Positions 32,091 through 34,708 of a stretch of 64,000 nt of DNA are shown here, piece after piece; the first letter of the stretch is position 1, and the number at the start of each line of letters is the position of its first letter. A program made the translations under genes and the position numbers. The stretch covers positions 1-64,000 of the forward strand of contig CALJDU010000076.1 of NCBI GenBank assembly GCA_938024995.1. Direction: 5' to 3'. The notes below the pieces were generated by a model that saw only the letters and a list, made by a program, of their open reading frames with translations, ran no database searches and was not told the origin of the DNA. This DNA comes from an uncultured bacterium (GTDB lineage: Bacteria; Myxococcota_A; Polyangia; Polyangiales; Houyiibacteriaceae).

Positions 32091-33728
32091 ATGTGGTCCC
32101 GCTTCTCGCTCGCCCTTGTCCTGATCACTGCCTTCGTTGCTTGCGGCGACGACGACGCGCCCGTGCGTGACGGCGGGATGGACGTCTCGACGGATTCAGG
32201 CGGCGAAGACACCAACGCGACTGACGCCACGCGCGGTGATCGCGACGGCGACACGATCACGGACCGACAAGAGGGCGAGGGCGCGGTCGATACCGATGGT
32301 GACGGGACGCCCGATAGCGAAGACGACGATAGCGATGGCGACGGACTGAGCGACGCCGAAGAAGCAGGCGACAGTGATCCCGCGACCGCTGCCATCGACA
32401 CCGACGGTGACGGCACCGAAGACTTCCGTGATCTTGACAGCGATGACGACGGGCTCCCGGATCGCATCGAGGAGATGCGCGGGACCGATCGCTTGGACCG
32501 GGACAGCGATGGAGACGGGGTCGACGATCTGGTCGAAGTGGCCGCGGGAACGGACCCGCTCGACGCCAGCGAAGACCCCCGCAGCCGCGGAGACTTCTTC
32601 TACGTCGTCCCGTACGAGGAGGCGCCGACTCCCGAGCGGGACACCCTCCGGTTCACCGCGGCCATCCAAAAAGCGGACGTCTTCTTCCTCATCGATACCA
32701 GCCGCTCCATGCAGCCCTACATCGACAACATCACCGACAACCTTCGCTCGTCGATCGTGCCGGCGCTCCGCGACGCGATCCCGGACGTGTGGTTCGGTGT
32801 CGGGCAGTTCGACATCGCGCCGGAGGACGTCTTCCCGGGTGGCCTCTGCAACGGGATCAAGAGCGAGCAAGGATCGAGCGACGATGTCGCCGCGATCGAG
32901 ATGGCGCTGCGAGGCCTCTCGACGCCGTGCTCGGGCTACGAGCCGTACGCGCAGACGCTCTGGCTCTACGCGACCAACGACCACCCGCGCTGGACCTCGG
33001 TGAGCGATCCGATGTGCGCAGACGGTCGGGTCGGTTTCGGTTGCGCGCGAGACGACGCGCTCCCGATCATGGTCGTGGTCGGAGACGAGGCCTTTGACGA
33101 GAGCTTTTTTCGGAGCCGCGCGGGTGTCGGTTTCGCGCCGACGGTGAGCGAGCTGGTCGAGGCCTACGGCGAGATCGGCGGGCGCATCATCGTGTTGGGC
33201 CCGACCGCGGTGGTCGGAAGCGAGGATCGGATGAGCTTCGACCCGCTGCTCGAGGAGCTCCTCGAGGAGACCCGCTCGGTCGATCGCGCGGGAGAGCCGC
33301 TCTTGCTCCCGACCTCTTCTTTTGATGACGCCTCTGGCGATCTGATCGACGCGGTCACGCGACTCGCGGGCGGCGCGGCGCTCGACGTGAGCCCGCGCCT
33401 CGACGATCGCGACGACGACGGAGTGAACGCCGTCGACTTCATCGACCACGTCGAGGCCAACGACTCGGGCGCCGATGGATGTACCGCAGGCCTCGCGCGA
33501 GAAGATCGAGATGAGGACGGCGTGCTGGAGACCTTCGTGGACGTCCCCGGGCGAACGCCGGTGTGCTTCGACCTGGTGCCCGCGATCAACCGGATCGTCC
33601 CGCCCACCGACACCCCGCAGGTCTTCCGCGGCGCGATCACGTTGTTGGGAGATGGGGTGACGGAACTCGACGCCCGCGACATCTACTTCCTGGTCCCCCC
33701 ACGCGCCGAAACCATGGTGCCTTTTTAA
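32091..33728 (+). CDS. VWA-domain lipoprotein with thrombospondin type-3-like Asp-rich repeats (CGDDD class)
   Basis: AFVACGDDDAPVRDGG; DTDGDGTPDSEDDDSDGDGLSDAEEAGDSDP; DVFFLIDTSRSMQPYIDNI MIDAS-like. Confidence 0.8.
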   Translation: MWSRFSLALVLITAFVACGDDDAPVRDGGMDVSTDSGGEDTNATDATRGDRDGDTITDRQEGEGAVDTDGDGTPDSEDDDSDGDGLSDAEEAGDSDPATAAIDTDGDGTEDFRDLDSDDDGLPDRIEEMRGTDRLDRDSDGDGVDDLVEVAAGTDPLDASEDPRSRGDFFYVVPYEEAPTPERDTLRFTAAIQKADVFFLIDTSRSMQPYIDNITDNLRSSIVPALRDAIPDVWFGVGQFDIAPEDVFPGGLCNGIKSEQGSSDDVAAIEMALRGLSTPCSGYEPYAQTLWLYATNDHPRWTSVSDPMCADGRVGFGCARDDALPIMVVVGDEAFDESFFRSRAGVGFAPTVSELVEAYGEIGGRIIVLGPTAVVGSEDRMSFDPLLEELLEETRSVDRAGEPLLLPTSSFDDASGDLIDAVTRLAGGAALDVSPRLDDRDDDGVNAVDFIDHVEANDSGADGCTAGLAREDRDEDGVLETFVDVPGRTPVCFDLVPAINRIVPPTDTPQVFRGAITLLGDGVTELDARDIYFLVPPRAETMVPF

Positions 33729-33770
33729 GGGAGGGTCTGTTCGGGCAACTGTCGGACACTCCGCGAGCCT

Positions 33771-33977
33771 TCCCTCCCAACGAGCAAGTAGTTGGGAGCC
33801 TCCCTCCTACGTTCGCGTAGCGGAGTATCGTTCGCTTCGCGAACTCCGCATCTTCCCTCCCGACGAGCGAGTAGTTGGGAGCCTCCCTCCTACGTTCGCT
33901 GCTCTCCTTTTTCGGAGGGTCTGTTCGGCCCTCCCTCCCAACGAGCAAGTCGTTGGGAGCCTCCCTCCTCCGTTCGC
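33771..33977. repeat. 46-bp palindrome-containing repeat, three copies (33771-33816, 33854-33899, 33932-33977)
   Basis: Unit TCCCTCCCAACGAGCAAGTAGTTGGGAGCCTCCCTCCTACGTTCGC; each unit contains the hairpin CTCCCAAC..GTTGGGAG. Confidence 0.85.
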
Positions 33978-34018
33978 TTCGCCTGCCGTTTGTTTCGCTG
34001 CGCTGTTAGGCTCCGCGC

Positions 34019-34708
34019 GTGACTGACGCCGCTCCGAAGGGTTTCTCGCCTCGCTCGGTCTCGATCTTCTTCGCGCTGGCCGCGCTTATCCATCTCGTCT
34101 CGATCTTCACGCGCTTTGACGCGCTGGCCGCGATGCTCCCGAACGGCGTGGACGGCGGCCTTCTCGTCGGCACCATCGCGTTGCTCTTGGTCGAGGGGAT
34201 CGTTGAGAGCCGCGTCGACTACGGCGAGCAGATGGTGGAGCTCCCGCTCTGGATGCAGATCAAGAGTAAGCCCATCAAGCTGGCGTTCACCTTTGGCTTC
34301 ACCTATCTCGCGATCGTTTTGCTACAGACGCTCGACCTTGAGATCGGTCCGATCGATCCGTCTCCTCCCGAAGAGTGGGATCTCCCCAAGCGCCTCCAGT
34401 TCTTCGCGATGATGAGCGTCGGGATGTTCTTCCCCAACTACCTCGCGGCGAGCGGCGGCCTCATCCCCGCGCTACGCGTGATCGCGTCTCCGCTCAAGCG
34501 CGTCCCGTTCTTCGTCGCGCTGATCATCGGCATGGTCGCGGGAATCGCGCTGGGCTTTGGCGCGGTGATGGCGGTCTCGTCCACCGCGATCGGCGAGGGC
34601 GTCGCCTTTGTGAACGCAATTGAGGAGCACCCGGTTGTCGTCGTCGGGACCGCCGTCGTAACGCTTATCACCAGTCTCGTGGGTACATTCTTCGCGAAAA
34701 GCGAGTAG
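34019..34708 (+). CDS. Multi-pass membrane protein of unknown function
   Basis: 229 aa with about 5 hydrophobic helices. Confidence 0.65.
   Translation: MTDAAPKGFSPRSVSIFFALAALIHLVSIFTRFDALAAMLPNGVDGGLLVGTIALLLVEGIVESRVDYGEQMVELPLWMQIKSKPIKLAFTFGFTYLAIVLLQTLDLEIGPIDPSPPEEWDLPKRLQFFAMMSVGMFFPNYLAASGGLIPALRVIASPLKRVPFFVALIIGMVAGIALGFGAVMAVSSTAIGEGVAFVNAIEEHPVVVVGTAVVTLITSLVGTFFAKSE

Follow-up and report, generated by a model that had tools for sequence, protein, structure and literature searches.

REP sequences are defined as mostly extragenic, palindromic repeats with stem-loops that occur in multiple copies with a shared consensus and measure 14-40 nt in E. coli (PMC12306157). The REP/BIME elements of E. 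coli are GTAG-tagged and RAYT-mobilised (PMC2817692, PMC3733652), and for many REPs the distance to the end of the preceding ORF is no more than ~15-20 nt (PMC12306157, PMC3733652). E. coli REPs located within 15 nt of stop codons are reported to stall ribosomes (cited in PMC12306157). CGTC-tagged REPs are palindromic and located near gene 3' ends, with no dedicated transposase known (PMC3733652). YPAL/RU-2 and ERIC of enterobacteria are non-autonomous repeats of ~100-170 bp; YPAL contains internal inverted repeats and has known empty and filled sites with target duplications of 3-26 bp, and the effect of ERIC on upstream transcripts depends on its orientation (PMC2229807).

The repeat family described here resembles REP/BIME in that its members are short, palindromic and extragenic, share a consensus, number tens to hundreds of copies and occur singly or grouped with other hairpins in small arrays. 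In contrast to REPs of 14-40 nt, its core of two abutting hairpins and a C-rich tail spans 58-66 nt; the family is strongly sense-polar, carries GTAG in some subfamilies only and has no RAYT in the genome of the window (G000) or around the repeat. With the CGTC-tagged REPs it shares the palindromic nature, the location near gene 3' ends and the lack of a known dedicated transposase, whereas its anatomy and phylum are different and a CGTC tetranucleotide at one end is not consistent in the family. YPAL/RU-2 and ERIC lack the arrangement of two abutting short hairpins and a C-rich tail, and target duplications as in YPAL are not evident in the new family. The MIRUs of mycobacteria are short repeats too, inserted in sense orientation around stop codons where one gene borders the next. 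They lie at overlapping stop/start codons within operons and are not two-hairpin elements; the sense orientation at gene boundaries is common to MIRUs and the new family, the two-hairpin anatomy is present only in the latter. The family works like a REP, but membership of the RAYT-REP family is not claimed.

The window, a stretch of 64,000 nt from a genome that is 94% complete, contains three units of 46 bp (33771-33816, 33854-33899 and 33932-33977) with pairwise identities of 44/46, 44/46 and 42/46 and spacings of 37 and 32 bp, in agreement with the original prediction. A 37-nt pattern with up to three mismatches matched three times in the window and never in 100 shuffles. The predicted stem variants were found too: GAC faces GTT in unit 2, where a pair is lost, and the stem of unit 3 is longer by GA/TC. 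The two copies of an additional repeat were recovered, albeit one base longer than first described (GGAGGGTCTGTTCGG at 33730-33744 and 33914-33928). Instead of forming a repeat of its own, as first listed, this sequence makes up the 5' half of a hairpin (HP1). Since GGAGGGTC represents the 5' arm of this hairpin, which abuts the palindrome (HP2), the true unit measures ~65 nt and not 46. Both the abutting second hairpin and the stop codon located 1 nt before the first unit had been missed.

The gene upstream of the array (32091-33728, forward strand) encodes a bacterial TSP3 repeat protein of 545 aa (ORF list, codon-usage gene call, Pfam PF18884). Its stop codon is TAA at 33726-33728, and copy 1 (33730-33817, forward strand; covariance-model match of 69.7 bits, fold and sequence) starts 1 nt later. 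Copy 1 has an enlarged HP1 loop and consists of HP1 (33730-33762; GGAGGGTC/GACACTCC with one mismatch), HP2 (33774-33798) and the C-rich tail (33799-33807). The GTTCGC-TTC-GCGAAC hairpin of the original prediction is present as the core of a longer accessory tail hairpin, GCGGAGTATCGTTCGCTTCGCGAACTCCGC (33820-33849, forward strand; fold and copy table), a tail type that the copy table also lists behind many copies of the A type elsewhere. Copy 2 (33854-33900, forward strand), detected with a repeat finder and by a model match over 33822-33900 (54.8 bits), has a missing or degenerate HP1, followed by HP2 (33857-33881, one pair lost) and the C-rich tail (33882-33890). Copy 3 (33914-33978, forward strand) is complete, with HP1 (33914-33934), HP2 with a stem of 10 bp (33935-33959), the C-rich tail (33960-33968) and a CGTTCGCT tail; its model match scored 89.3 bits (E 5.7e-20) and its predicted fold -32.1 kcal/mol. 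The downstream gene (34019-34708, forward strand; ORF list and codon-usage gene call) is co-directional and encodes 229 aa without a Pfam match.

A complete unit is composed of HP1 (GGAGGGnC...GnCCCTCC), the directly abutting HP2 (CYCC-variable stem-GGRG) and a C-rich tail (CCYCCCTCC). Most copies in the own genome have HP1 as GGAGGGTC-loop-GACCCTCC and HP2 as CTCCCAAC-loop-GTTGGGAG, followed by CCTCCCTCC and a YAYGTTCGCT tail. The consensus over relatives, derived from pattern and MAFFT alignments, reads GGAGGGnCTG-NNC(G)-CAGnCCCTCC, CYCC-variable hairpin-GGRG and CCCCCC(T/A)CCC. The window copies belong to the A type (HP1 GGTC/GACC, HP2 CCCAAC/GTTGGG), often with a stop codon or a tRNA just before. 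The B type (HP1 GGGC/GCCC or GGAC, HP2 CCAAAT/ATTTGG) has the outer ends ATATTCTYT...CGTCGCTTTCCAATAT with ATAT on either side, short TGGARRG-like inverted ends and tandem units of 101-102 bp; its mobile unit measures ~101 nt, and the unit of Sandaracinus ~100 nt. The HP2 loop of the B type, AAATAAGTAAATGATTT, contains stops in all three forward frames (e.g. G000 C5:25698, C43:104698 and C9:49606), and several upstream ORFs terminate within a B-type element (e.g. C42:5191, C70:14968 and C41:90291). Beside or between B-type copies, a second small module was observed with outer ends like those of the B type (ATATTCTTTGTTCCG...CGGAACCAATAT). It is present in few copies (G000 C49:71-355, C6:130050-130145, C34:11600 and C20:100) and suggests that both belong to a set of elements with a common mobility system.

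The original prediction of a dispersed, REP/BIME-like structured repeat family was borne out by copies and compensatory changes alike, contrary to its own refuting case of no further copies and no conserved structure. A genome-wide search of G000 gave 56 BLAST matches and ~80 covariance-model matches, a lower bound given that several copies lie at contig ends. About 12 copies reside in the spacers of an array of 33 tRNA genes in under 10 kb (G000 contig C6, ~126.6-136.2 kb; L021:2648-12189), itself part of a 12.5-kb stretch, and about ten of them start immediately 3' of a tRNA. ARAGORN missed one or more additional tRNA-like genes in this array, among them one near L021:9242-9312. Repeats are likewise contained in the tRNA array of a relative from another family (G035, L181).

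Most copies are located between called genes and few overlap gene 3' ends. With genes called by a simple codon-usage script, 44 copies had a same-strand stop codon between -2 and 15 nt before the core (14/85 in G000, 11/40 in G003, 7/37 in G035 and 12/20 in two Sandaracinus-like genomes); second members of tandem arrays are necessarily farther from the stop codon. In the antisense control, the most favourable window of 18 nt on the opposite side contained 13 opposite-strand stops (p = 2e-5). The distance between stop codon and core peaks at 3-8 nt overall; for the Sandaracinus set the peak is at 6-7 nt. Apart from one similar pair, 45 upstream genes were unrelated by sequence. Many B-type copies of the own genome have no adjoining stop codon, and some are antisense.

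The structure of the repeat is conserved as well. Among own-genome copies, 97.4% of cells were paired, a value reached in 0/500 shuffles, and 28 double-sided changes stood against 11 in shuffles. The 79 distinct copies from relatives revealed double-sided changes at 12 of 16 pairs (151 cells versus 39 in shuffles); pairing was 95% in this model-fitted alignment and fell to 40-60% with the partner slid. When 40 diverse copies were aligned with MAFFT, independently of the model, there were 101 double-sided changes versus 33 and a pairing of 94% versus 40-59% when slid. Stem bases differ wholesale from genome to genome and pairing is kept. The excess of double-sided changes together with the loss of pairing upon sliding indicates that pairing is maintained, primarily within HP2 plus one or two pairs of HP1; as copies descend from one another, the independent events are fewer than the cells counted. 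The compensatory changes could stem from few source copies instead of selection on RNA, and they would also be expected if pairing of single-stranded DNA were needed for transposition. The conserved fold consists of two local hairpins. A higher-order pairing of GGAGGG with CTCCCTCC is possible from the sequence, and the C-rich tail could pair with the 5' arm of HP1, replacing its own 3' arm. On the reverse strand, the class-wide GGGAGGGRGG...GGGGGAGGGG tracts could form a candidate G-quadruplex with HP2 in the loop.

The covariance model of the own genome detected diverged relatives in 11 of 58 genomes, G000 counted in, and a second model, R2, built class-wide, gave members in 35 out of 318 genomes from one class of Myxococcota. 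Copy-rich genomes are G000, G003, G035, G312, G315, G316, G122 and G123, whereas relatives in genus g2 are copy-free. All 13 positive genomes of a phylum sample affiliated to this same class and none to any other; the copy counts per genome from the R2 and phylum scans are at-least values. A pattern scan of named species genomes returned only Myxococcota or 'Deltaproteobacteria' MAGs among the matches listed. The own-type tail pattern had no match in a contig scan of genomes, a set that may not include the own genome. None of 4227 Rfam models matched the window at gathering score, or six loci at E<=1. The literature provided no relevant description of such a repeat in myxobacteria or Sandaracinus, and in the S. 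amylolyticus genome paper (PMC5010890) the word 'repeat' refers to CRISPR only. Integron attC sites and CRISPR were dismissed on anatomy alone. The family is considered previously undescribed and, among the genomes sampled, confined to a single class of Myxococcota. The share of positive genomes in this class, ~11%, argues against an essential function.

Turnover was observed between two species of one genus, represented by the closed genome G044 (one contig of 10,327,335 bp) and by G316 (two contigs). The flanks of the compared loci were mostly 91-98% identical. Out of 13 element loci, 11 were empty in the other species, one was shared (with a deletion) and one was a deletion remnant; among orthologous sites, the covariance model detected the element only in the shared orthologue. 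At the clearest empty sites, the two species share downstream sequence again from 0 nt (L377/L394) or 5 nt (L370/L385 and L382/L393) past the stop codon. With 11 of 13 sites empty in the other species, elements have been gained or lost within the genus at stop codons and hence move. MITEs are characterised by terminal inverted repeats, a target-site duplication and a resident transposase that shares their ends. No target duplication was evident at the compared loci of G044 and G316, and subfamilies other than the B type are without clear duplication. Direct tandem repeats with units of ~20-45 bp, e.g. GGTCTGGCGGCGGGTGTCGACGCTGCCGTTTTTGACGAAAT, were noticed immediately 3' of several insertions in G044 (L364, L366 and L368). 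Another subfamily in G316 (L373, L375, L376 and L379) is located behind terminator-like hairpins (e.g. AGAGCACGAATCA...TGATTCGTGCTCT and a pyrimidine run) and not directly behind a stop codon.

With moderate confidence, we consider the family as REP-like mobile structured repeats, RAYT-independent as far as tested, which either target gene 3' ends or are retained there and probably act in mRNA 3' ends. The original prediction had proposed to look for a RAYT-type transposase elsewhere in the genome, a link that found no support. A search for Y1_Tnp (PF01797, the RAYT/IS200 domain), which covered G044 of the two species compared and gave matches in control genomes, yielded no match in G000 or in G044, although the genus of the latter has insertion differences. 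The repeat is absent from all of 30 PF01797 loci taken from relatives. A GTAG-REP/RAYT system carries GTAG (or GTGG) at one end and has a cognate Y1 transposase between inverted copies. A classical family of this kind with an overlooked transposase would account for the PF01797 proteins of some relatives and for the GTAG tag that adjoins the tail, on the reverse strand, of 15/20 distinct copies in G035 and 11/61 in G000; yet the tag is absent from the B type and from nearly all of G003, and we regard such a family as very improbable. A RAYT is probably not the mover. The B-type right end was also used to look for orphan ends beside an autonomous transposon, and none was found: the 28 matches of this end comprise 26 in known copies, one at a contig end and one weak match with three mismatches. 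An insertion coupled to the termination of transcription or translation by a non-RAYT enzyme, possibly via an RNA intermediate, would home the element to gene 3' ends, in sense 0-7 nt after the stop of any gene and before any downstream sequence; it appears improbable.

A purely selfish DNA repeat is possible though rather unlikely. Its hairpins would only be the substrate of a single-strand-DNA transposition, as in REP/RAYT and the ends of IS200/IS605, and stop codons would merely be near harmless sites. The empty sites demonstrate the mobility that such a repeat requires, HP2 pairing is kept whatever its sequence, and copy numbers are patchy among relatives. Harmless sites, however, would comprise all intergenic space in both orientations, yet the copies peak 3-8 nt after the stop and are dominantly in sense; moreover, neither G000 nor G044 encodes a Y1 transposase. 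The sense position directly behind stop codons and tRNA 3' ends would also fit a transcription terminator, intrinsic or Rho-dependent, spreading as a cassette, with its G+C-rich hairpins and a tail rich in C and poor in G, a possible Rho site. However, neither hairpin is followed by a U-tract, T-rich runs instead precede HP1, and a terminator scan gave no excess over shuffles and no match inside the array. Several copies in succession before a co-directional gene, as in the window, also speak against a terminator, which is decidedly improbable.

Under the preferred reading of REP-like repeats acting at gene 3' ends, the three units of the window are copies of a small non-autonomous mobile repeat. 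The empty sites and the distances show that such copies are both acquired and shed within a genus, and that they take up sense positions ~15 nt or less behind stop codons, or lie beside tRNA genes. From position, sense polarity and compensatory changes we infer that the element is transcribed as the start of the 3' UTR and folds into two stacked hairpins; in the window, readout of the array would follow that of the TSP3-repeat gene. By analogy, the likeliest effect would be that of a 3'-end structure forming a barrier to 3'-5' exonucleases. A brake on the ribosome at the stop codon, as for REPs of E. coli, is possible given the short distance.

REP-like repeats rank with the most frequent non-coding features of bacteria and gather right behind stop codons. 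The present family occurs class-wide; in two close species it has inserted recently at stop codons, without the usual transposase, and the counterpart sites are cleanly empty. The mover of such elements, their targeting to versus retention at gene ends, and the effect of the hairpins on the upstream mRNA are thereby directly testable now.
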